Of a stretch of DNA of 64,000 nt, positions 11,451-62,716 are shown in pieces. A model generated the notes under the pieces. That model had not been told where the DNA came from, ran no database searches, and saw only the letters and a program-made list of their open reading frames with translations. Position numbers and translations under genes: made by a program. Position 1 is the stretch's first letter, and each line of letters opens with the position of its first letter. The DNA comes from Zunongwangia pacifica (lineage in GTDB: Bacteria > Bacteroidota > Bacteroidia > Flavobacteriales > Flavobacteriaceae): the NCBI RefSeq assembly GCF_023499215.1, contig NZ_JAKHSK010000001.1, forward strand, positions 186,001 to 250,000, given 5' to 3'.

Positions 11451-11560
11451 GTCATTCCGTGCTTGACACGGAATCTCATACAGTTTTTGACTATTGATTT
11501 TTGTTTTATGAGACCCCTGAATCAAGCCCGCCTGCCGGACGGGCAGGTTCAGGGTGACGA
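11451..11560. repeat. REP-like head-to-head hairpin pair (copy 1)
   Basis: Two units facing each other. Unit one, 11451-11480, is GTCA, an ATTCCGTG/CACGGAAT stem around CTTGA, then TCTCATA. Unit two, 11507-11560, reads in reverse: TATGAGA, CCTGAA, an inner palindrome CCTGCCGGACGGGCAGG, TTCAGG, GTGAC. Related copies lie at 53102, 59415, 61309 and inside 61986-62134. The 305-bp gap between lpdA and dinB holds this repeat and the dinB operator region; no gene was seen there. Confidence 0.75.
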
Positions 11561-51970: not shown

Positions 51971-52531
51971 TTGCTTCAGCTTTTTAAAAAATATAGCGTT
52001 GTTATTCGGTTTATCGCCGTATTTCTGGGAAGTTATTTTCTGCTTTCTGTGCTCTATAATGCCTATTTGATTTATTCTGAAAATCAAACTGAATTTTATC
52101 CCGATTTTTTTACCAATATCGTGAGTAGGCAAAGTGCAGCCATAATGGAGTTTCTGGGATATTCCATAAAATTAGAACCTCACGAAACCGAGAGTGCCGT
52201 AAAAGTTTTTGTAGAAGGTACTTTTTTAGTTCGCGTGGTAGAAGGTTGTAATAGCATTAGTGTGATTATTCTTTTTGTTTCTTTTATCCTGTCTTTTTTT
52301 GCAAAAAAACGAGCCACCTTTTTTTATATTTTGGCAGGAATCGTATTCATTTACACGATAAACCTAATTCGCATCGCATTGCTAACTATCGGGATTTATG
52401 AATATCCGCAATACAGCGCTGTTATGCACGATATTGTTTTTCCGCTTATCATTTATGGGACGGTAATTATTTTATGGATCTTTTGGGTTAGGGTGTATTC
52501 AAATTTAGAAAAGAATGAAAGCCAGGTATAG
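51971..52531 (+). CDS. xrtF: Exosortase family protein XrtF
   Basis: 186 residues, using a TTG start because no ATG precedes the conserved N-terminus. Several membrane helices surround the exosortase active site: Cys in VVEGCNSISVIILFVSF, Arg in NLIRIALLTIG and His in SAVMHDIVFPL. Exosortases process C-terminal anchors of exported proteins and are related to archaeosortases. XrtF is the flavobacterial type. The partner protein begins inside the last codons of this gene (17-base overlap). Confidence 0.88.
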   Translation: MLQLFKKYSVVIRFIAVFLGSYFLLSVLYNAYLIYSENQTEFYPDFFTNIVSRQSAAIMEFLGYSIKLEPHETESAVKVFVEGTFLVRVVEGCNSISVIILFVSFILSFFAKKRATFFYILAGIVFIYTINLIRIALLTIGIYEYPQYSAVMHDIVFPLIIYGTVIILWIFWVRVYSNLEKNESQV

Positions 52532-52967
52532 AATTGTGTTCATTGGGATGCTCGTGAGCGTGTTGGCAGCCATTCGGTTTTATGAAAGCACTCTTTTTTA
52601 CGATCCGCTCATCAATTTTTTTAAATCTTCAGATTATCTACGTGATCAGATTCCAGATTTTAAAGCCGGATTATTAATCCTTAATACCATTTTTAGATAT
52701 ACCTTAAATAGTCTAACTTCTATAGGGATCATCGCGATAGCATTTGTAGATCGAAATATTGTAAAGTTTTCAGCAGTATTATTTTTGTTGCTTTTAGGTA
52801 TTGCCGGGAGTGTGTTTACCTATTTAATTTTTACTATAGAAAATGAACATTTTCTCGCCCTGTTTTATGTTCGGCGGTTTTTGATTCATCCGATATTTAT
52901 TTTGGTGCTTTTGCCTGCATTTTATTATTACCGAATGAACAACCGAAGAAAAAAGAACTTAAATTGA
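52515..52967 (+). CDS. Exosortase F system-associated membrane protein
   Basis: 150 residues with four or more hydrophobic helices, such as LTSIGIIAIAF and FSAVLFLLLLGIAGSVFTYLIF in consecutive positions, ending in a basic tail (RMNNRRKKNLN). Its immediate overlap with xrtF and its size fit the known exosortase F partner protein. The biochemical role is not known. The 333-bp gap downstream holds a REP-like repeat and a promoter. Confidence 0.82.
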   Translation: MKARYRIVFIGMLVSVLAAIRFYESTLFYDPLINFFKSSDYLRDQIPDFKAGLLILNTIFRYTLNSLTSIGIIAIAFVDRNIVKFSAVLFLLLLGIAGSVFTYLIFTIENEHFLALFYVRRFLIHPIFILVLLPAFYYYRMNNRRKKNLN

Positions 52968-53101
52968 AAGAATTTCCCTGAATTTTGAAATTCTATGATC
53001 CTGTTCTTCTTTATTTTTGCTCTATAAGTGGCTATTTCGCTTATTCTAAGCTAGTTTACTTATTGTTTTTTTAAGTTTGAAATAAATTAATAATTACGAT
53101 C

Positions 53102-53221
53102 GTTACCCTGAACCTGCCCGTCCGGCAGGCGGGCTTGATTCAGGGTCTCATCACAATAGTTTGTTTTTCATAATATATGAGATTCCGGATCAATTCCGAT
53201 AGCTATCGGAACGGAATGACG
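53102..53221. repeat. REP-like head-to-head hairpin pair (copy 2)
   Basis: Unit one begins GTTACCCTGAA, contains the inner palindrome CCTGCCCGTCCGGCAGG and ends TTCAGGGTCTCAT (about 53150). Unit two, in reverse, starts ATGAGATTCCGGATCAA (about 53177), carries CCGATAGCTATCGG as inner palindrome and ends GGAATGAC. It fills most of the gap between the exosortase pair and the copper island. Confidence 0.75.
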
Positions 53222-53263
53222 AAAAAACGAACTATGACAAAATACGGATAATCAATCATATTG

Positions 53264-53293
53264 TTGTTAATTATAGATTATCGACTATTTTTG
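53264..53293 (+). promoter_or_regulatory. Promoter at the head of the copper island
   Basis: TTG (53264-53266), a 19-bp spacer and TATTTTTG (53286-53293) fit the TTTG/TAnnTTTG pattern. Transcription would begin within a few bases of the ATG at 53300, so the message may be nearly leaderless. Confidence 0.55.
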
Positions 53294-53299
53294 TAATAA

Positions 53300-53713
53300 A
53301 TGAAAAAGGTTTTTGGTAAAATATTCGCTTCCATTTTAGCCGTTTTAGTGCTTTTTTCTACCTTATCCTTTACGGTAGATCAGCATTTCTGCGGAAGTTT
53401 TCTTGTGGATAGTGCCGTTTTTACAAAAGCAAAGACCTGCGGAATGGAAATGAGCTCAGCAACTTCCGCTGAAGCTTCTATTACAAAAGAACCTTGCTGT
53501 ACCAATAAGAAATTAGAAGTAAAAGGTCAGGATGAACTGAAACAGAACTTCAATAATCTTGATTTTCAGCAGCAAATATTTATCACTGGTTTTATCTATT
53601 CTTACCTACAGGTTTTCGAGGTTTCAGAGCCAGATTTTATTCCTTTTAAAGATTATTCCCCACCAAAGCTGGTCTGCGATATTCAGTTGCAGGATCAGGT
53701 GTTCCTTATTTGA
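53300..53713 (+). CDS. HYC_CC_PP-family protein of the copper island
   Basis: 137 residues with an N-terminal signal or anchor (about 8-27). Three small motifs mark the family: DQHFCG (the HYC position), EPCCTNKK (CC) and YSPPKL (PP). Such proteins stand upstream of CusA-type efflux pumps in Bacteroidota; the Cys and His residues suggest metal binding in the periplasm, but no activity is known. The cusA gene begins 114 bases downstream. Confidence 0.75.
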   Translation: MKKVFGKIFASILAVLVLFSTLSFTVDQHFCGSFLVDSAVFTKAKTCGMEMSSATSAEASITKEPCCTNKKLEVKGQDELKQNFNNLDFQQQIFITGFIYSYLQVFEVSEPDFIPFKDYSPPKLVCDIQLQDQVFLI

Positions 53714-53827
53714 TCTAAACACATTTTCAATTTCGAAACATGCTTATGTTTCGAAGGTTTTGCGATGCCTTTTTAGGCGAAGCTTAAAACTTAAATGATG
53801 TGTTTTTAAGGTCAAATATTTCTTTTT

Positions 53828-56800
53828 ATGCTGAACAAAAGCATTAAATTTTTAATAGAAAATAAACTGGTTGCCGTTATCTTACTTGTTGTTTTGGTAG
53901 GATGGGGATTGGTAAATGCGCCATTTAACTGGGGAAATGGCCCGATAAATATCGGCCTGCCACGCGATCCGGTTGCGGTAGATGCTATTCCCGATATTGG
54001 TGAAAATCAGCAAATTGTTTTTACAAAGTGGGAAGGTCGTTCGCCACAGGATATTGAGGATCAAATCACCTATCCTTTAACGACGTCTCTGTTGGGAATT
54101 CCCGGAGTAAAAACCATTAGAAGTTCTTCAATGTTCGGTTTTTCCAGTATCTATATCATTTTTGAAGAAGATGTAGAGTTCTATTGGAGCCGAAGCCGGA
54201 TCCTGGAAAAATTAAATTCATTACCAGGCGGATTGTTGCCCGACGGAGTAAGTCCGGCTTTAGGCCCGGATGCTACTGCTTTAGGGCAAATTTACTGGTA
54301 TACTTTAGAAGGTCGCGATAAAGATGGGAATGTTACCGGTGGTTGGGATCTTCAGGAATTACGAAGCATTCAGGATTTTTATGTGAAATATGCACTTTCT
54401 GGTGCTGGCGGTGTGTCTGAAGTTGCTTCGATTGGCGGTTATGTTCAGGAATATCAAATCGATATAAATCCTGAAAAAATGCGTCAATACAAGGTGAGCT
54501 TACAAGATGTCGTGAAAGCGGTAAAAGCAAGTAATCGTGAGATTGGCGCGCAGACTTTAGAAATCAATCAGGCCGAATATTTAGTGCGTGGCCTGGGCTA
54601 TGTAAAATCTATAGAAGATATTGAAAATGCAGTAGTTTCCTCTAAAGATTTTACATCTTTAAAAGTCAGTGATGTGGCCTATGTTTCGCTAGGCCCGGCA
54701 GCGCGACGCGGAATTTTAGATAAAGAAGGCGCTGAGGTTGTGGGCGGAGTAGTTGTTGCTCGTAATGGTGCCAATCCAATGGAAGTGATCAATAATGTAA
54801 AAGATAAAATCGCTTCTATTAGTGGTGGGTTGCCTTCCAAAGAATTAGCCGACGGTACCACTTCGCAACTTACCATAGTTCCTTTTTATGATCGATCTGA
54901 ATTGATTCACGAAACCTTAGGCACTTTAAATGAAGCGCTGAGTTTAGAGATTTTGATTACCGTTTTTGTGATCGTGATCATGGTATTTAACCTTCGGGCT
55001 TCGATTCTTATTTCAGGATTACTTCCGGTAGCGGTATTAATGGTATTCATCGCGATGAAATTTTTTAATGTTGATGCCAATATCGTGGCGCTTTCAGGAA
55101 TTGCGATTGCCATTGGGACGATGGTCGATGTTGGGGTGATCCTTTCAGAAAATATTATTCGGCATTTAGAGGAAAACGAAGCAAATCTGCCAACAAACAC
55201 GGTGGTTTATAATGCAACGGCTGAAGTTTCCGGAGCGATCATTACCGCGGTTTTAACCACGATTATCAGTTTTATTCCGGTATTTACGATGGTGGGGGCT
55301 GAAGGAAAATTATTCCGCCCGCTGGCTTTTACCAAAACCATGGCGCTTACCGCTTCGATTATCGTAGCACTATTCTTAATTCCACCTTTTGCAGCCAGTA
55401 TTTTCAGGAAAAGAACCATCCGGAAAAACTTCAATTTAGCCATTCAGGCACTATTGATTTTAGCCGGAATTGCAATGATTTTTTATGGATTTTGGATAGG
55501 CCTAATTTTAATAGGTTTAGGAGCAGCCGGAATTCTAAAATCGAAAAACATCACTTCAGAAAAGCAGCATAACTGGTTGGTTGTAGGTGTTGTCGGCACC
55601 GCCATTGTGTTTATGCTGGCTGTTTTTTGGCGACCACTTGGCTTAGATACTTCGATCTTTTGGAATGTGATCATGGTTGCGATTATTTGCTTTGGTTTAT
55701 TGTTTGTCTTCAATCTTTTTAAAAGCAATTACACCCGCATCTTACATTGGGCATTAGCCAATAAAATAGTATTCCTTGTTTTTCCATTGGCGATCATTAT
55801 TGCAGGCTTCGCGATTATGCGAAATACGGGCGAAGAATTTATGCCTTCGCTTAATGAAGGTTCTTTTTTGTTGATGCCCACATCGATGCCGCATGCCGGA
55901 GTTGCTGAAAACAAACGGATCTTACAACAATTGGATATGGCGGTAGCTCGTATTCCTGAAGTTGAAACGGTGGTAGGAAAAGCAGGTAGAACCGAGTCGG
56001 CATTAGATCCCGCACCACTGAACATGTACGAAAATATTATTCAGTATAAACCTGAATACGCATTAAATGCGAATGGAGAGAAGCAGCGTTTTAAGGTTAA
56101 CGAAGATGGATACTTTGTATTGAAGGACGGGAGTGTATGTGCAAATTCAAACCTAAAAACCGAGCACACCTCAAAGGTTTCCAAAACCTGTGAGGTCTCC
56201 CAGCTAATCCCAGATGAAAATGGGGAATATTATCGAAATTGGCGCCCGCATATTAAATCTCCAGATGATATTTGGAATGAAATTTCAGCAGCCACAAAAC
56301 TACCAGGAATTACCTCAGCACCTAAATTGCAACCTATCGAGACGCGATTGGTGATGTTACAAACCGGGATGCGCGCACCTATGGGAATTAAAGTGCAGGG
56401 TCAGGATTTAAAGCAAATTGAAGCTTTTGGGATGAAGCTCGAAGAAATCCTAAAAGAAGCTGAAGGTGTTAAAGAAGAAGCTGTTTTTGCCGATCGTATC
56501 GTAGGGAAACCTTATTTGCTGATGGATATTAAACGAGATCGATTAGCGAGATATGGGATTTCAGTGAGTGATGTTCAGGAGGTATTGGAAGTGGCTGTAG
56601 GCGGAAAAATGTTAAGCCAGACGGTGGAAGGGCGCGAGCGTTATTCAGTGAGAGTTCGTTATCCAAGAGAACTTCGGGATTCGCCAGAAGATTTGAAAGA
56701 TATTTATGTTCCGGTAGAGAACGGGCAGCCGGTTCCATTAAATGAACTCGTAGAAATTCGCTATGAAAAAGGGCCGCAGGTGATAAAAAGTGAAGACACG

Positions 56801-57562
56801 TTTTTAATTGGCTATGTGCTTTTTGATAAAATGGATGGTTTTGCTGAGGTTGATGTGGTTGAAAATGCGCAAAAAACCATTCAGCAGAAAATAGAATCCG
56901 GAGAATTAAAAGTTCCGCAGAGCATCAATTACGAATTTACCGGAAATTATGAAAATCAGCTTCGCGCCGCAAAGACATTATCCATTGTAGTTCCACTGGC
57001 GCTGCTAATCATTTTTATGATCCTGTATTTTCAGTTTAAATCGGTGACCACATCCTTTATTGTATTTACCGGGATTGCGGTAGCTTTTGGTGGAGGCTTT
57101 ATCATGATCTGGTTGTATGGACAGGACTGGTTTTTAAATTTCAGCCTTTTTGGTGAAAATCTTAGGGATCTATTCCAAATGCATCCCATTAATTTGAGTG
57201 TTGCAGTTTGGGTTGGTTTTATTGCGCTTTTCGGGATTGCGACAGATGATGGTGTGGTAATGGCGACGTATCTAACGCAGACTTTCGGTAAAAATGAACC
57301 CGATACTGTAAAAGCCATTCGAGCGTCCGTGGTTGAGGCCGGCGAGAAAAGAATCCGGCCTTGTTTAATGACTACAGCGACGACCATTTTGGCATTACTG
57401 CCGGTGTTAACCAGTACAGGACGTGGAAGTGATATTATGATCCCGATGGCGATACCAAGTTTCGGCGGAATGGTATTCGCGTTAATCACGCTTTTTGTTG
57501 TACCAGTATTGTTTTGCTGGAAAAAGGAGTTGAAGTTGAAAAATAAAGTAGTGAGTAGTTAG
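53828..57562 (+). CDS. cusA: CusA/CzcA-family heavy-metal RND efflux pump
   Basis: 1244 residues with the RND layout: a first helix (about 13-30), porter domain, helices 2-6 with the proton-relay GTMVDVGVILSENIIRH, a second porter domain and helices 8-12 with FGIATDDGVVMATYL. PDDIW and NEGSFLLMPTSMPHAG mark the metal-RND branch. With the TolC-like and CusB proteins it expels Cu+/Ag+ from the periplasm. Near residues 775-800 a segment (VCANSNLKTEHTSKVSKTC) is encoded by a palindromic repeat and looks inserted. The last codons (KVVSS) overlap a sequence also found after tolC. Confidence 0.93.
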   Translation: MLNKSIKFLIENKLVAVILLVVLVGWGLVNAPFNWGNGPINIGLPRDPVAVDAIPDIGENQQIVFTKWEGRSPQDIEDQITYPLTTSLLGIPGVKTIRSSSMFGFSSIYIIFEEDVEFYWSRSRILEKLNSLPGGLLPDGVSPALGPDATALGQIYWYTLEGRDKDGNVTGGWDLQELRSIQDFYVKYALSGAGGVSEVASIGGYVQEYQIDINPEKMRQYKVSLQDVVKAVKASNREIGAQTLEINQAEYLVRGLGYVKSIEDIENAVVSSKDFTSLKVSDVAYVSLGPAARRGILDKEGAEVVGGVVVARNGANPMEVINNVKDKIASISGGLPSKELADGTTSQLTIVPFYDRSELIHETLGTLNEALSLEILITVFVIVIMVFNLRASILISGLLPVAVLMVFIAMKFFNVDANIVALSGIAIAIGTMVDVGVILSENIIRHLEENEANLPTNTVVYNATAEVSGAIITAVLTTIISFIPVFTMVGAEGKLFRPLAFTKTMALTASIIVALFLIPPFAASIFRKRTIRKNFNLAIQALLILAGIAMIFYGFWIGLILIGLGAAGILKSKNITSEKQHNWLVVGVVGTAIVFMLAVFWRPLGLDTSIFWNVIMVAIICFGLLFVFNLFKSNYTRILHWALANKIVFLVFPLAIIIAGFAIMRNTGEEFMPSLNEGSFLLMPTSMPHAGVAENKRILQQLDMAVARIPEVETVVGKAGRTESALDPAPLNMYENIIQYKPEYALNANGEKQRFKVNEDGYFVLKDGSVCANSNLKTEHTSKVSKTCEVSQLIPDENGEYYRNWRPHIKSPDDIWNEISAATKLPGITSAPKLQPIETRLVMLQTGMRAPMGIKVQGQDLKQIEAFGMKLEEILKEAEGVKEEAVFADRIVGKPYLLMDIKRDRLARYGISVSDVQEVLEVAVGGKMLSQTVEGRERYSVRVRYPRELRDSPEDLKDIYVPVENGQPVPLNELVEIRYEKGPQVIKSEDTFLIGYVLFDKMDGFAEVDVVENAQKTIQQKIESGELKVPQSINYEFTGNYENQLRAAKTLSIVVPLALLIIFMILYFQFKSVTTSFIVFTGIAVAFGGGFIMIWLYGQDWFLNFSLFGENLRDLFQMHPINLSVAVWVGFIALFGIATDDGVVMATYLTQTFGKNEPDTVKAIRASVVEAGEKRIRPCLMTTATTILALLPVLTSTGRGSDIMIPMAIPSFGGMVFALITLFVVPVLFCWKKELKLKNKVVSS
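56168..56196. repeat. Palindromic repeat inserted in the cusA coding sequence
   Basis: Arms ACCTCAAAGGTTT (56168-56180) and AAACCTGTGAGGT (56184-56196), one mismatch, loop CCA. The reading frame stays open, and the encoded stretch interrupts an otherwise conserved region of the pump. Confidence 0.7.
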
Positions 57563-57581
57563 AATTTAGAAAATAGAGCAG

Positions 57582-57602
57582 AGAAACAAGAGCCAAGAAC
57601 CA
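57582..57602. repeat. Degenerate heptamer tract after cusA
   Basis: Three consecutive 7-base units AGAAACA, AGAGCCA, AGAACCA. The 252-bp gap between cusA and the TolC-like gene also holds a repeat pair at 57649-57764 and no gene. Confidence 0.55.
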
Positions 57603-57648
57603 GGAATTATTCTGAATGCAAAATGTTGAATTTTGAATGAAATTTTCT

Positions 57649-57764
57649 AGTCATTTCGACCCTGCCAGCCGGCAGGCGGGTGAAGCGGAGCGTAATGGAG
57701 AAATCTTTAGTTTCAGTTCTTATTGAAAATAGATTTCTCGACTCGTGCCTCGCTCGAAATGACG
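57649..57764. repeat. Head-to-head repeat pair, GTCATTTCGA type
   Basis: Unit one, 57649-57707, runs from GTCATTTCGA through the inner palindrome CTGCCAGCCGGCAG to GGAGAAATCT; unit two, 57731-57764, is the inverse, AGATTTCTCGA to CGAAATGAC. It has the same head-to-head plan as the GTCA-TCTCAT family but another core. Confidence 0.7.
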
Positions 57765-57813
57765 ACAGGTTTTAGATAAGTGATTTTGCTTGGAACATGA
57801 AACAAAACTTTAA

Positions 57814-59079
57814 ATGAAAAAGGAAAATAAACTGATGGCTGAAAGCTGGCAGCTAAAAGCTGAAAAAGCATATAAAACTTTCCTGATCTTGGGAATGCTG
57901 CTACTTTCTTTGGCACCCCAGGCGCAACAGCTGGAATCTTATGTTTTGGAAGCGCAGGATAATAGCCCGGCGATCGATGCCTTGCGAGCGAAATATGATA
58001 TTTCCAAAGAGCAGATCAATGCGGTAAACACGTTGCCTAATACCGAATTTGCTGCAGGCTATTTTGTTAGCGAACCTGAAACCAGAACCGGCCCCCAGCA
58101 GGCTAAATTTTCGGTGAAGCAGATGTTTCCGTGGTTTGGGACAATTTCTGCGAGGCAGAATTATGCCAGTGCATTAGCCGAAGAAGACAATATTGAAGTC
58201 GATATCGCTTTACGCAAGCTAAGATTATCGGTTTCTAAGACCTATTTTCAATTATATGAACTTCAGCAGAAAATTAAAGTGATTCAGGAGAATATTGAGT
58301 TATTGAAGGTCTATGAAGAATTGGCGCTAAACGGGGTGGAAGTTGGTAAAGCCAGCGCTGTGGATGTGCTTCAGTTGCAAATGCGTCAAAATAAGCTGAA
58401 AGATCAGCAGGTAAATCTTGAAAGTCAATTAAATGCCGGAAAAGTGGCTTTTAATCGATTATTGAATAAAGAAAATAATACTTCAGTTGAACTTGTAGAT
58501 ACGTTGGAATTGCCTTCAGAAGAAATAAATATTTCAGAAATAAAAGTTCATCCAGAATTATCCAAATTCGATGAAAGTCTGGAAAGTGTTGATTTTGCCG
58601 AAGCTATTAATCAAAAAGAATCGGCTCCGCAATTTGGTTTAGGGATAGATTATATCAATGTTGGGAGGCGGGCCGATATGGCAATTCCTGATAATGGGAA
58701 AGATATTGTGATGCCTATGGTATCGTTTTCTATTCCGATTTTCAATAATAAATATTCATCGGTTACCGCGCAGAATGAGTTGCGAAAAAAGCAAATTTCA
58801 GCAAATAGAAATCAGCGTTTAAATGAATTGGAAAGCAGTTTGTCGAATGCTATAGAAATGCGGAATTCAGCTCGTAATTCTGTAGAGATTCAACTTCGAA
58901 ATATTGCATTAACCAGAGATGCGGAGGATATTTTAATGCGGAGTTACGAAAGTGAAAGTTTAGATTTTAGGGATGTGCTGGATATTCAGGAAATGCAGTT
59001 GGATTATCAGCTGAGATTGGCCGAAGCGGTAAGTAATTATTTTCAGCAAACAGCGGTGATTCAGTATTTAGTGGAATAG
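57814..59079 (+). CDS. TolC-family outer-membrane factor
   Basis: 421 residues. A hydrophobic signal core (about 20-36, FLILGMLLLSLAPQAQQ) is preceded by an unusually long polar stretch, MKKENKLMAESWQLKAEKAY; its codons include a heptamer tract. The mature part has the long coiled helices of TolC, e.g. LQLQMRQNKLKDQQVNLESQL in sequence and the GVEVGKASAVDVL hinge. It should form the outer-membrane channel for the CusA pump. An ATG at 57835 is an alternative start. CusB follows after a 519-bp repeat-rich gap. Confidence 0.88.
   Translation: MKKENKLMAESWQLKAEKAYKTFLILGMLLLSLAPQAQQLESYVLEAQDNSPAIDALRAKYDISKEQINAVNTLPNTEFAAGYFVSEPETRTGPQQAKFSVKQMFPWFGTISARQNYASALAEEDNIEVDIALRKLRLSVSKTYFQLYELQQKIKVIQENIELLKVYEELALNGVEVGKASAVDVLQLQMRQNKLKDQQVNLESQLNAGKVAFNRLLNKENNTSVELVDTLELPSEEINISEIKVHPELSKFDESLESVDFAEAINQKESAPQFGLGIDYINVGRRADMAIPDNGKDIVMPMVSFSIPIFNNKYSSVTAQNELRKKQISANRNQRLNELESSLSNAIEMRNSARNSVEIQLRNIALTRDAEDILMRSYESESLDFRDVLDIQEMQLDYQLRLAEAVSNYFQQTAVIQYLVE
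57837..57864 (+). repeat. Heptamer tract in the N-terminal codons of the TolC-like gene
   Basis: Four 7-base units GGCTGAA, AGCTGGC, AGCTAAA, AGCTGAA. Units of the same kind occur outside genes at 59570-59590 (AGCTGAT, AGCTAAA, GGCTAAA). Confidence 0.65.
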
Positions 59080-59199
59080 TAATGAGTAGTTAGAATTGAG
59101 TATTGAGAAGAGCAAATTTGACAATGTGGTAATTTGAAAATGTGATGATTGAGAAGAGAGAAAAAAATAGAATAGAGATTATAGATTTTGAATGAATAA

Positions 59200-59371
59200 A
59201 GGCCTACCGAAAATTGCTTGTAAAATTGGAAGTGAGAGAAGCGTAGAATTTTAGGCTGTTTGAGCGTAGCGAGTTCCTAAAATTTAGGTTCTGAACAAAC
59301 AATTTAGAGCAAAGTTCGTAAGCCTAGACTTTTTTGTTTCTTTTTTCGGCAATGGAAAAAAGAAAAAGAAT
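59200..59371. repeat. Structured intergenic element of the flavobacterial type
   Basis: About 170 bases of non-coding sequence containing a perfect 9-bp stem AATTTTAGG (59247-59255) / CCTAAAATT (59276-59284) around TTTGAGCGTAGCGAG, then CCTAGACTTTTTTG and an A-rich tail. Its layout resembles dispersed intergenic repeats known in Flavobacteriaceae; that link is from memory. The 519-bp gap from 59080 to 59598 holds this, a REP-like pair and a heptamer tract, and no gene. Confidence 0.5.
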
Positions 59372-59414
59372 ACGATTGGAATTGGAGAATAGATAATTTT
59401 CAAATGTAGCTTTT

Positions 59415-59498
59415 GTCATGCTGAACTCGTCCGCGATAGCTATCGGGACAGCATCTCATAACGCTGATGCTGAGATCCCGGATCAAGTCCGGGATGAC
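59415..59498. repeat. REP-like head-to-head hairpin pair (copy 3)
   Basis: Unit one, 59415-59460, GTCATGCTGAACTCG, inner GATAGCTATC, then CAGCATCTCATA; unit two, 59471-59498, TGAGATCCCGGATCAAG then TCCGGGATGAC. Same family as copies at 11451, 53102 and 61309. Confidence 0.75.
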
Positions 59499-59569
59499 TG
59501 ATTAAGTTAGAATAGATAAAAACTGAAAGAAACAGCATTTTGGATAAAATTTTAAATATTGAAAAAATA

Positions 59570-59590
59570 AGCTGATAGCTAAAGGCTAAA
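59570..59590. repeat. Heptamer tract before cusB
   Basis: Three 7-base units AGCTGAT, AGCTAAA, GGCTAAA end 8 bases before the cusB start codon, where a ribosome-binding region would normally lie. Confidence 0.6.
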
Positions 59591-59598
59591 AGACGATT

Positions 59599-61302
59599 AT
59601 GAAAAAAACAATTATATATACAGGTTTGGCTTTGATCATTGGCCTTTTTATTGGCTATTTGGTTTTTAGCGGAAGTGATAATACAACCGAAGAGACGCAC
59701 GCTGAGCATAGTGCAGCAGAAGATACAATGTGGACCTGTTCGATGCATCCGCAGATCATGCAACCCGAACCTGGAGATTGCCCGATTTGCGGCATGGAAT
59801 TAATCCCGGCAGATCAAAGTGATGCTACTATTGCAGGTTTTACGATGACCGAAAATGCAATGAAACTGGCGAATATCCAAACAACAATCGTCGGAACTTC
59901 TAATGCAGACAAATCGGTTACTCTATCTGGAACCTTAGAAACTAATGAAGAACTAAATGCAGTGCAATCCTCGTATTTTGCTGGGAGAATCGAACAGCTT
60001 TTTATCAATACGACAGGGGAACAGGTTAAGATTGGTCAAATTCTGGCAACAATTTATTCACCCGAACTGGTGGCTGCGCAGCAGGAATTATTAACGGCTT
60101 TGAAACTAAAGGAATCTCAGCCTAAATTATACCAGGCGGTACGAAACAAGCTTAAGAATTGGAAGTTGAGTGATTCGCAAATCAATTCGATCGAAGAAAG
60201 CGGAAAAGTAAAAGAGAATTTTCCTGTTTTTGCCTCAAATTCGGGTACGGTGACTGAAAAAATGGTAAACGAGGGGGATTACGTAAATCGTGGGCAGCCC
60301 TTGTATAAAGTCGCAAATCTTACGAAAGTATGGGCGGTTTTCGATGCTTATGAGCAGCAATTGTCTAATTTAAAAGAAGGTCAAAAACTTCAAATCTCGG
60401 TAAATGCTTTTGTAGACGAAAGTTTTAGTGGAACCATAGATTTTATAGATCCTATTTTAGATAACTCGGCTAGAACTACAGAAGTTCGCGTGGTTTTAGA
60501 TAATCGCGACAGAAACTTAAAACCGGGAATGTTCGTAGAAGCTAAGGTTGAGTTGGGAGCTAAAGAAGATTCGCAAATAAGTATCCCAAAGTCGGCAGTA
60601 ATGTGGACGGGAGAGCGATCTGTGGTGTATTTAAAAACCGATCCCAATACGCCACAATTTGAAATGAAAGAGGTGAAATTAGGTAGCGAAACTGGCGATA
60701 CTTACCAAATTCTTGAAGGTTTGGAAAAAGGTGATGAAGTGGTTACCAACGGAACCTTTACCGTAGATGCCGCGGCCCAACTTCAGGGAAAAAAATCGAT
60801 GATGAACCAGAATCCGACTGATAGCAATAATAAAGCTATGGTGATGGAAATGAGTTTGCCAAAAAGTTTTCAGTCGGTACTAAAACCGGTGATTCAGGAT
60901 TATTTACAATTGAAAGATGATCTGGTGGCTAGCGATGCCGCTTCAGCAATGCAGGCCGCGAAAAAAGCTTCAGCAAAAATCAACAATATCGATACATCGG
61001 AATTGAATAAGATGTTGACATCTCACTTTAAAGTTCTTCAGGATAAATTTAAAGCGATAAGTGATACAGCAGCTATTGCCGCGCAACGAGAAAATTTTAT
61101 TGCCCTTTCTCAAAATATGATTGCGCTGGTATCGAATTTCGATGAAATAGAGGAAATTTATATTCAACGTTGCCCAATGGCGAACAACAACAAAGGCGCG
61201 ACCTGGCTAAGTAAAAATAAAGAAATTAAGAATCCATATTTTGGAGACCAAATGTTAGGCTGTGGTGAAATTTTGGAAACATTACCAAATAAATATAAAT
61301 AG
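59599..61302 (+). CDS. cusB: CusB-type periplasmic adaptor with metal-binding and DUF3347 domains
   Basis: 567 residues: N-terminal membrane anchor (about 5-24), a His-rich stretch, a heavy-metal-binding domain (TCSMHPQIMQPEPGDCPICGMEL, split by Met and Cys ligands, about 51-74), the adaptor core with barrel and hairpin domains (about 95-400), and a C-terminal DUF3347 domain (about 430-565) ending in RCPMANNNKGATWLS and NPYFGDQMLGCGE. It joins CusA to the outer-membrane channel and may pass on metal. The C-terminal domain is shared with the next gene. Confidence 0.92.
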   Translation: MKKTIIYTGLALIIGLFIGYLVFSGSDNTTEETHAEHSAAEDTMWTCSMHPQIMQPEPGDCPICGMELIPADQSDATIAGFTMTENAMKLANIQTTIVGTSNADKSVTLSGTLETNEELNAVQSSYFAGRIEQLFINTTGEQVKIGQILATIYSPELVAAQQELLTALKLKESQPKLYQAVRNKLKNWKLSDSQINSIEESGKVKENFPVFASNSGTVTEKMVNEGDYVNRGQPLYKVANLTKVWAVFDAYEQQLSNLKEGQKLQISVNAFVDESFSGTIDFIDPILDNSARTTEVRVVLDNRDRNLKPGMFVEAKVELGAKEDSQISIPKSAVMWTGERSVVYLKTDPNTPQFEMKEVKLGSETGDTYQILEGLEKGDEVVTNGTFTVDAAAQLQGKKSMMNQNPTDSNNKAMVMEMSLPKSFQSVLKPVIQDYLQLKDDLVASDAASAMQAAKKASAKINNIDTSELNKMLTSHFKVLQDKFKAISDTAAIAAQRENFIALSQNMIALVSNFDEIEEIYIQRCPMANNNKGATWLSKNKEIKNPYFGDQMLGCGEILETLPNKYK

Positions 61303-61308
61303 TATAAC

Positions 61309-61370
61309 GTCACCCTGAACTTGTTTCAGGGTCTCATAATAATGAGATTCCGGATCAAGTCTTGAATGAC
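61309..61370. repeat. REP-like head-to-head hairpin pair (copy 4, minimal form)
   Basis: GTCACCCTGAACTTGTTTCAGGGTCTCAT followed by AATGAGATTCCGGATCAAGTC and TTGAATGAC, given here in parts: two 30-base units back to back without inner palindromes. It shows the basic unit most clearly and lies between cusB and the DUF3347 lipoprotein gene. Confidence 0.75.
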
Positions 61371-61409
61371 CTAAAATAATGTTCAATAATTAATTAAAAA
61401 CAAGCAATT

Positions 61410-61976
61410 ATGAAGCGTATACACAGAAATCTATTTTTTATCGCCCTTTCAGCAGGGATCGTAAGTTTTACCAGCTGTAAGGAGAACAAAGAAACTTCTA
61501 CTGAAACATCTGCTGAAACTTCGCACGAAGAAATGAATATGTCTCACGATGAAGAGATGGACGAAGAGTCTGCTATGGAAATGAGTGAGGCCGAATTTAA
61601 TGACGAGAAAGTTGCAGCGAATTACGAAGCTTATTTAGATTTGAAGGATGCTTTAGTAGCTACTGACGCTGAAGCAGCGAAGGAAGCGGCTAAAAAACTA
61701 TCTGAAAACGCAGAAGCTGAGATTATGGAAGCAGCGAGTAAAATTGCAGAAGCATCAGATATCGAAGCGCAACGTAAAGCCTTTTCAGATTTAACACATA
61801 GTATGGAGCCCGTGTTGGAAAATGCGATTGCCTCTGGAGCGATTTACAAACAATTTTGCCCAATGGCTTTTGAAGGTAAGGGCGATTACTGGTTTGCAAG
61901 TTCCAAAGACATTAATAATCCTTATTTTGGGGATAAAATGTTGCATTGCGGCAGAGTAGAAAAAACTATTCAGTAA
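61410..61976 (+). CDS. DUF3347-domain lipoprotein of the copper island
   Basis: 188 residues. The N-terminus (FIALSAGIVSFTSCKEN) is a lipoprotein signal with Cys23; a Met/His/Asp/Glu-rich stretch follows (EEMNMSHDEEMDEESAMEM), well suited to bind copper. The DUF3347 domain (about 65-185) ends with FCPMAFEGKGDYW and NPYFGDKMLHCG, closely like the C-terminus of CusB. It is probably a periplasmic or surface copper-binding protein; no enzyme activity is suggested. A MITE-like element follows. Confidence 0.82.
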   Translation: MKRIHRNLFFIALSAGIVSFTSCKENKETSTETSAETSHEEMNMSHDEEMDEESAMEMSEAEFNDEKVAANYEAYLDLKDALVATDAEAAKEAAKKLSENAEAEIMEAASKIAEASDIEAQRKAFSDLTHSMEPVLENAIASGAIYKQFCPMAFEGKGDYWFASSKDINNPYFGDKMLHCGRVEKTIQ

Positions 61977-61985
61977 AAAATATTA

Positions 61986-62134
61986 ATGAGGCTGTCTAAA
62001 AACTCAATTTTAGTCAACCTGTTCCGATGGCTATCGGAATTGTTTCAGGTTCTCATAATGATTTTTAAATCAATGAGATGAGATTCTGAAACAAGTTCAG
62101 AATGACGTTTTTGGATGCTTTTAGACAGCCTCAT
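61986..62134. mobile_element. 149-bp MITE-like element with perfect 16-bp terminal inverted repeats
   Basis: Ends ATGAGGCTGTCTAAAA (61986-62001) and TTTTAGACAGCCTCAT (62119-62134) are exact inverse copies. Between them lies a REP-like pair with GTCAACCTGTTCCGATGGC and the inverse GAAACAAGTTCAGAATGAC. No transposase is encoded. The right end overlaps the start of the AraC gene. If the outer AT is counted as target sequence, a 2-base AT duplication is possible. Confidence 0.7.
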
Positions 62135-62716
62135 CTTTTAAAAATTAGAGTTTTGGCAGAGAATATTATTCATATAAAAAATGTGGTTTGTGGCCGTTGT
62201 ATCGCAACGGTAGAAGATATTCTGTCTAAACTTGAGATTCCATATAAAAATGTGAGTCTGGGAGAAGCCACTTTACTAAAAGATCTTTCTGCAGAAGAAC
62301 ATCAAGCCTTTACGTCGGAACTTGAAAAGGTAGGTTTTGAGCTTATAGAAACTAAAAATAAACGCGTCGTAAATCATATAAAATCGGTTTTAATTGAAGA
62401 GGTTTCGAATAGAACGGATCAGAAAAAGCTTTCTGAAATTTTAAGTACCAAGCTGCATTACGACTATAGCTATATCACCAATCTGTTTACTGCAGAAGAA
62501 GGACAAAGTATTCAATCCTATTTCAATAAGCTTAAAATTGAAAAAGCTAAAGAGTTGTTAGAGTACGATGAACTGAGTATAGCTGAAATTGCTTACGAGC
62601 TTGGTTTTTCAACAGCGGCCTATTTATCCACTTCCTTTAAAAAGCAAACTGGCATCACTCCATCTGAATATAAAAAAATGCAGATAAAAGGTCGAAAAGG
62701 CCTTGATGCTGTTTAA
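62102..62716 (+). CDS. AraC-family regulator with HMA-like N-terminal domain
   Basis: 204 residues from the only upstream ATG, which lies inside the MITE-like element; residues 1-11 come from it. A TTG at 62153 (18th codon) is a likely original start. Residues about 20-90 resemble a heavy-metal-associated domain: IIHIKNVVCGRCIATVEDIL has the CxxC metal site. The C-terminal part holds the AraC helix-turn-helix pair (about 130-198; ELSIAEIAYELGFSTAAYLSTSFKKQTG in its usual place). It probably senses copper and controls the island; this is inferred from domain and position. Confidence 0.8.
   Translation: MTFLDAFRQPHLLKIRVLAENIIHIKNVVCGRCIATVEDILSKLEIPYKNVSLGEATLLKDLSAEEHQAFTSELEKVGFELIETKNKRVVNHIKSVLIEEVSNRTDQKKLSEILSTKLHYDYSYITNLFTAEEGQSIQSYFNKLKIEKAKELLEYDELSIAEIAYELGFSTAAYLSTSFKKQTGITPSEYKKMQIKGRKGLDAV

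Follow-up and report, generated by a model that had tools for sequence, protein, structure and literature searches.

In Zunongwangia pacifica and close relatives, repetitive hairpins gain or lack tiny palindromes at their tips; each palindrome, approximately 20 letters long, is present or missing in its entirety, and the palindromes behave like extremely small mobile elements. The hairpins were followed up from a 64,000-nt window of its genome (assembly GCF_023499215.1, contig NZ_JAKHSK010000001.1, positions 186,001–250,000), where the base unit is a repetitive extragenic palindromic (REP) sequence of the CGTC type, built from GTC, a stem of 8 bp, a loop of 5 nt (CTTGA, CTTGT or similar) and CTCAT. 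A second hairpin family, running from GTCATTTCGAC to GAGAAATC and called the TTTCGA family here, occurs in length classes of 40 and 61 nt. The palindromes at the apices, referred to as the G-module and the A-module, vary in presence between species as complete units, at fixed hairpin positions in both families. The G-module is also found in non-REP DNA, including an in-frame position in ileS.

Apex modules at orthologous sites

Five genomes of the same genus (G001–G005) are syntenic with positions 52,500–62,500 of the window and were read there. Across these relatives, 188 matches to the plain unit were obtained, of which 150 were listed, and the sequence fetched from them was mostly from G001 and G004. 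Matching the flanks on both sides gave 62 unit pairs at 46 orthologous sites; all units were plain at 25 sites, all carried the G-module at 7, and the apex state differed at the remaining 14. In the cleanest pair, a plain unit of 29 nt in G004 (L321) corresponded to a unit of 50 nt in G001 (L372), with a difference of exactly 21 nt and flank identities of 97 and 96%, each measured over 260 bp. The Z. pacifica unit at L093 has the module where G003 and G004 are plain, and it retains the CTTGT loop. At L127, both partners carry an A-module in place of 3 nt, whereas both are plain in G004 (L331), and one intergenic region, compared between L116 and its counterpart in G001 (L308), holds two hairpins whose states are opposite. 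More differing units lie outside the 46-site table (window position 57650, L341/L123 and L327/L146). At the first of these, GTCATTTCGAC adjoins TGAAGCGG in G002, and a 20-nt module stands between the two in the window, the flanks being near-identical. A partner with the G-module at L201 is opposite a plain unit in G001, as read from the match listings. The cleanest G-module comparisons showed neither a target duplication nor a loss of target bases. Orthologous loci that have or lack a module, together with the ileS insertion described below, support the nested insertion or swapping of apex palindromes proposed in the first-pass annotation of the window.

Structure and register of the modules

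The G-module is a palindrome of 20–21 nt that starts with CCTGCC (CCTGCCCGTCCGGCAGGCGGG, CCTGCCTGCCGGCGAGGCAGG and its reverse complement, and others). The pattern CCTGCC-N2-8-GGCAGG had 72 matches in the genome and one in the control. The sequence fetched from the Z. pacifica genome contained 69 G-module sites, 60 of them in hairpins with a GTCA-like tag, and in 58 of these 60 the module started exactly 11 nt after the G of the tag, a register that coincides with the top of the stem (GTC plus 8 bp). Because the fetched sequence had been picked partly by REP patterns, the count was repeated on REP-blind sites; among the matches listed for CCTGCC-N2-8-GGCAGG, which comprised 47 distinct sites, the tag lay at 11 nt in 37 and was not there in 10, two of which (L156 and L181) resemble TTTCGA units with a mutated tag by eye. 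CGTC units with the module read GTCACCCTGAA, module, CTTGATTCAGGG, and TTTCGA units read GTCATTTCGAC, module, TGAAGC. A G-module-like palindrome at L096 (701–719) also lies within a sequence that may correspond to the end of a group II intron.

The A-module (TTCCGATAGCTATCGGAA, 18 nt) takes the place of GAC or AAC, 3 nt on the 5' side of the loop, and in its 19-nt form three bases are replaced on the 3' side. It occurs in the TTTCGA family as well (L160). Its core was found at 86 sites with up to 2 mismatches, of which 47 were assigned to CGTC units by script; by eye, the other 39 comprised some 45-nt or partner units, some other contexts and some chance matches. In example folds of six units, for which a DNA parameter set was requested, the module was predicted to sit atop the stem in 50-nt and 44-nt units. 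An assembly artefact is unlikely because modules occur in the single-contig genome G002 and in named isolates, for example of Winogradskyella, Maribacter and Mucilaginibacter (exact 20-mer).

The G-module outside REP units

A 21-nt G-module is inserted at L119 (701–721; contig C17 of the Z. pacifica genome) in a long open frame, to which it adds seven codons in frame (NLPAGKA). The best match of this frame was isoleucine--tRNA ligase, TIGR00392 (E 2e-111; 373.7 bits for a 416-residue piece, where the model has 861 positions and its cut-off of 621 applies to the whole protein). The insert is present in the Z. pacifica genome and G002 and absent in eight of the nine relatives compared (G001, G003, G004, G005, G007, G010, G022 and G012); in G012, this stretch of ileS is 3 nt shorter. 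A FastTree tree built from the syntenic region places Z. pacifica with G002 (support 1.000), and its sole outgroup, G036, joins the branch of G005; a single gain of the insert is the simplest reading. Two further G-module sites lie in transposase-like frames, which scored above the cut-off for Pfam HTH_Tnp_1 and below the whole-protein cut-off for an NCBIfam IS3 family. No REP unit was seen around the module in ileS or in the two IS3-like frames. Its presence in ileS of two genomes and absence in eight relatives indicate that the G-module is able to move without REP homology.

Distribution across genomes and phyla

Within the genus, G001 to G005 contained 42, 8, 42, 41 and 55 plain units and 7, 11, 1, 11 and 0 G-module units, respectively. 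In a sample of the phylum without same-genus species, comprising 394 other genomes, 9 had 1–5 matches to the G-module in the 11-nt register, against 49 in Z. pacifica and none in the controls; two or more of the matches in the nine are unrelated by eye. The exact 20-mer CCTGCCTGCCGGCAGGCAGG was detected in 27 of 395 sampled genomes of the phylum including Z. pacifica (26 of the 394 others; control, none), and a scan of genome contigs found it in at least 116 contig stretches from several phyla. The hosts among the matches listed included Patescibacteria, Omnitrophota, Bacteroidota, Planctomycetes, Chloroflexi, Nitrospirota, Elusimicrobia, Verrucomicrobia and Deltaproteobacteria.

Outside the genus, 124 exact 20-mer sites were analysed, drawn from the contig scan and some phylum-sample loci after sites near contig ends had been dropped. 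By an uncontrolled count, 36 of them lay in an open frame of more than 200 codons; chance alone also produces frames of this kind where the DNA is rich in GC. In two Patescibacteria (L408 at 2127 and L497 at 2881), the 20-mer is preceded by GGTAGA, which belongs to a tRNA-like 5' fragment. That intact tRNA genes were the target is not supported for these two, as ARAGORN reported no tRNA there either with the 20-mer or with the flanks joined.

Base unit, census and pairing

The genome scanned comprised 5.10 Mb in 100 contigs, including the window. The plain pattern GTCAYYCNKNNCTTGWNNCNGRRTCTCAT had 102 matches with up to 3 mismatches, 100 of them listed, and a pattern with an enlarged apex (larger loop) had 59; the reversed-pattern controls gave none in either case. 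A loose unit finder, run on 115 stretches and the window, made 203 calls, of which 36 were removed (members of the second hairpin family, other starts, or calls lacking a CTTG-like loop) and 167 were kept, one or two of these being probably false. Unit lengths fell into discrete classes of 29 nt (98 units), 50 nt (27), 44 nt (25), 45 nt (7) and 49 nt (5), in addition to rare units of 43 nt (two) and of 42, 46 and 27 nt (one each). These classes rule out an origin of the apex variants by point mutation, an outcome that would have counted against the reading in the first-pass annotation.

A perfect 8-bp stem was present in 88 of the 98 units of 29 nt, and a 9-bp stem in one. The loop measured 5 nt in those 88 and exceeded 4–5 nt in module-bearing units. 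The first two stem bases were AT in 116 of the 167 units, AC in 31, AA in 19 and TA in 1, and a C preceded the tag in 104 (GTC itself was a search criterion). A short unpaired tail is present, which is CTCAT, also a search criterion, and not CCA. Stems occurred in many matched versions (CCCTGAA/TTCAGGG, TTCCGGA/TCCGGAA, TTCCGTG/CACGGAA and others), indicating that pairing is kept while the stem sequence changes. The hairpin plan originally described for the window, GTCA followed by a 7-bp stem and TCTCAT, holds with shifted bounds: the stem has 8 bp and takes in the A of GTCA, which leaves GTC as the unpaired tag and CTCAT as the tail. Hairpin-bearing blocks were also observed in tandem, in approximately 3–4 copies, at L123 (906–1393) and L098 (701–1668).

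Neighbouring units within 150 bp formed 66 pairs, of which 61 were head to head, four tail to tail and one head to tail, in support of the head-to-head arrangement noted in the window. That every unit faces an inverted one was true of the copies in the window, each of which is opposite a partner with a different stem, but not genome-wide, where 122 of the 167 units belonged to head-to-head pairs. None of the 61 head-to-head pairs had identical stems when the first six stem bases were compared; shuffling predicted a mean of 9.96 such pairs, and zero was reached in none of 20,000 shuffles. With distinct pairs only, the count was 0 of 53 against 9.4 expected. The lack of same-stem pairs points to possible selection against palindromes that are long and perfect. 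Pairs in which both units carry a G-module numbered 0 of 61 against 2.3 expected (p 0.06 for all pairs and 0.04 for distinct pairs), from which no avoidance is claimed. Comparison of L323 (G001) with L147 (Z. pacifica) and L330 (G003) hints that a whole REP pair may be inverted between species at the same site, although this is suggestive only.

Copies in the window

The repeated unit was present at all five places where it had been noticed (11451, 53102, 59415, 61309 and within 61986–62134), and the additional core reported at 57649 proved to be a member of the TTTCGA family:

11451–11479, plus strand: plain CGTC-type REP unit; stem ATTCCGTG, loop CTTGA
11508–11558, minus strand: head-to-head partner; stem ACCCTGAA, 21-nt G-module at 11527–11547, one extra G before the tail
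53102–53151, plus strand: 50-nt unit with a G-module at 53113–53133; tag mutated to GTT
53177–53220, minus strand: 44-nt partner with the A-module TTCCGATAGCTATCGGAA at 53194–53211, where plain units have GAC
57650–57705, plus strand: hairpin of the second family (GTCATTTCGAC...GAGAAATC) with a 20-nt G-module at 57661–57680
57732–57763, minus strand: inverted partner of the TTTCGA-family hairpin
59415–59459, plus strand: 45-nt unit with an A-module 3' of the loop; core CGATAGCTATCG at 59434–59445
59470–59498, minus strand: plain partner unit; stem ATCCCGGA, tail CTCAG
61309–61337, plus strand: plain unit; stem ACCCTGAA, loop CTTGT
61342–61370, minus strand: partner unit with a decayed stem ATTCAAGA/TCCGGAAT
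61986–62134, no strand assigned: element resembling a miniature inverted-repeat transposable element (MITE) and containing a unit pair; perfect 16-nt terminal inverted repeats at 61986–62001 and 62119–62134
62013–62056, plus strand: 44-nt unit of the pair within the MITE; A-module variant at 62022–62039; the MITE copy L003 is plain at that place
62078–62106, minus strand: plain partner inside the MITE; stem ATTCTGAA

Whole REP pairs are also present or absent between species. The entire pair at 53102 is missing at the syntenic site in all of G001–G005, and a similar plain pair occurs at the 61309 site in G003 and G005. At the 61986 site, where the window holds the MITE, G003 and G005 hold a CGTC pair differing by a 21-nt module, and no unit was seen there in G001, G002 and G004. 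The terminal inverted repeat of the MITE is GAGGCTGTCTAAAA, and at least one such end was found in eight copies including that of the window; the apex varies among the copies, being plain in L003 and an A variant in the window and L024. At the 57649 locus, a CGTC pair in G003 and G005 (L240 and L242) occupies the intergenic place where the window and G002 have their TTTCGA pair. A repeat of approximately 170 nt lies just upstream of the 59415 unit (59201–59371), with copies in the genus that are 77–96% identical.

Candidate mechanisms

On balance, we lean towards a two-layered system in which CGTC REPs are arranged head to head and their apices serve as landing sites for smaller independent palindromes, the 20–21-nt G-module and the 18–19-nt A-module, whose entry would be linked to replication. 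The REP hairpin would be extruded on single-stranded DNA, replication or repair would stall at the stem-loop junction, and the strand of a folded palindrome would be copied or joined in at that junction before synthesis resumes. The fixed 11-nt position, at the top of the stem, may thereby be read as structure rather than as sequence. Copying or joining at the junction is favoured because the G-module sits at the stem top and, in the cleanest cases, its entry neither duplicates nor removes target bases.

Several observations weigh against this reading. The replication-linked entry is inferred, no enzyme or intermediate having been seen, and most of the 14 differing sites do not give the direction of change. 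The difference between L308 and L116 is 22 nt instead of 21, and at L305/L298, one of the 14, the stems differ too. Entry of the A-module costs 3 target bases, and this module may therefore use another route; its palindrome (CCGATAGCTATCGG, up to 2 mismatches) had 135 sites in the genome, with a control that was not zero (17 sites). In two of the six folds, a 45-nt A unit and a TTTCGA unit with a module, the module was not simply stacked on the expected stem. Outside the genus, a flanking stem of at least 6 bp was present at 10 of the 124 sites of the 20-mer (null mean 2.2, maximum 9 in 300 shuffles), one of them a CGTC-like hairpin in a Falkowbacteria contig (L460). With stems at so few sites, hairpin apices are unlikely to be the general target in other phyla. 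A broader proposal, which we put forward only tentatively, is that the 20–21-nt palindrome, which is open in all reading frames, constitutes an independent mobile unit distributed across several bacterial phyla and using no known transposase; in this genus it would have specialised for REP stem-loop junctions, and it would also make 7-codon inserts in essential proteins.

Ectopic gene conversion or template switching between REP copies of one genome, guided by the shared stem and loop with the module as a passenger, would be compatible with the two-layered system, but we regard it as rather unlikely to be the principal process. Identical module sequences do recur within a genome, CTGAA and CTTGATTCAG around the module are common to many module-bearing units, and stems occur in many matched versions. 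However, the sequence 3' of the module differs between the two hairpin families, the acceptor kept its own CTTGT loop at L093, and the sites in ileS and the IS3-like frames have no visible REP unit around them; such exchange may add to the spread of modules, and it does not readily explain ileS. Alternatively, a dedicated transposase or site-specific recombinase could have the 20–21-mer as its substrate, which would make the module a minimal non-autonomous transposon. The clean insertion in the best comparisons and the occurrence of the exact 20-mer over several phyla would fit such an enzyme, yet it appears improbable, given that no candidate gene was found in a search covering Y1 transposases (PF01797) and that no site motif common across phyla was seen beyond an excess of A beside the palindrome (114 of 248 positions).

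That the modules are ancestral and were precisely deleted in some lineages is very unlikely. Most differing sites are directionless and 7 of the 46 have the G-module in all sampled species, as loss would allow, but the ileS insert is confined to two grouped genomes and missing from eight relatives, some of the genus and some beyond it, L093 is plain in both G003 and G004, and loss of an A-module would need to recreate stem-matching bases. The least probable account is mobilisation of the REPs and their apex variants by a REP-associated tyrosine transposase (RAYT, TnpA-REP), a link that had been raised for the window and that found no support here. The Z. pacifica genome has one RAYT-like gene, on contig C25, scoring 21–22 bits under a Pfam cut-off of 23 bits, but it is flanked by a different hairpin, CCTCACAGGTTT. 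Moreover, PF01797 had no match (E 0.001) in any of the five same-genus genomes, which carry 8–55 plain and 0–11 G-module units. Examination of Y1 genes with flanks to approximately 1.5 kb (30 of 41 listed places) yielded one unit-like match (L263), a chance one to judge from its sequence. Among the places examined, no Y1 gene was flanked by the unit, as in CGTC-type REPs, and the arrangement of RAYTs and REP doublets forming hairpins (REPINs), a Y1 gene flanked by the same REP, was not observed. The RAYT-like gene itself (L002, 1297–1890) has CCTCACAGGTTT/AAACCTGTGAGG hairpins on both sides and perhaps represents a separate REP-like family with its own transposase.

Comparison with known systems

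The base unit can be placed, with a different tail, in the superfamily of CGTC REPs that Di Nocera et al. (2013; PMC3733652) described. According to the available parts of that paper, CGTC REPs have a terminal GTC tag (TGTC and CCTC are allowed in many repeats), a stem of 8–9 bp that almost always starts with AT, and loops of 4–5 nt (Table 1; other loops in a few species); they form head-to-head dimers, commonly heterodimers, lack a dedicated transposase or mover, and include Bacteroidetes among their hosts. The unit described here is alike in tag, stem, dimer habit and the lack of a dedicated transposase, and its loop agrees in the plain units with an 8-bp stem but not in the module-bearing ones, whereas the CGTC tails are mostly, though not all, CCA and the tail here is CTCAT. 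The same parts do not mention interchangeable apex palindromes or gain and loss at a locus, both of which are present here, and the portions available of PMC3733652, PMC6006769 and PMC12306157 do not describe apex modules, polymorphism at matched loci or a life outside REPs. Alternative, partly self-complementary loops coexist in one genome, as here, in GTAG REPs (E. coli GTAG-3 and Bradyrhizobium GTAG-14); these have another tag and other hosts, and the available text (PMC3733652) does not describe loop pieces living outside REPs, unlike the module.

CGTC REPs have no known mover in what is available of the same source (PMC3733652), and the close genomes used here provide matched loci with and without a single 20–21-nt insert, which opens the insertion process to study through natural polymorphism. 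The insert lengthens a housekeeping enzyme by additional codons, and annotation may be misled by it in several phyla. Should the broader proposal above hold, the palindrome would rank with the smallest known mobile units of DNA and would, in this genus, be one mobile element lodged inside another. Literature searches on the module sequences and peptides, REPs, nested palindromes, Rickettsia palindromic elements (RPE) and Patescibacteria returned no entry naming such modules within the CC-licensed part of PubMed Central.

RPEs are longer than the 20–21-nt module, and the G-module differs from them in lying, in this genome, mostly inside the apex of another repeat and in the occurrence of its exact 20-mer in several phyla. 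RPEs are palindromes situated in frame in unrelated protein genes, according to the available parts of PMC3733652, and the insert in ileS likewise interrupts a conserved protein gene while keeping its frame. Repetitive hairpin elements, double-hairpin elements and GC clusters of mitochondria belong to organelle genomes, and the accessible sections of PMC2800124 describe no fixed position inside a host hairpin, unlike the modules here; they resemble the modules in being short, mobile-looking hairpins that land in both intergenic regions and genes.

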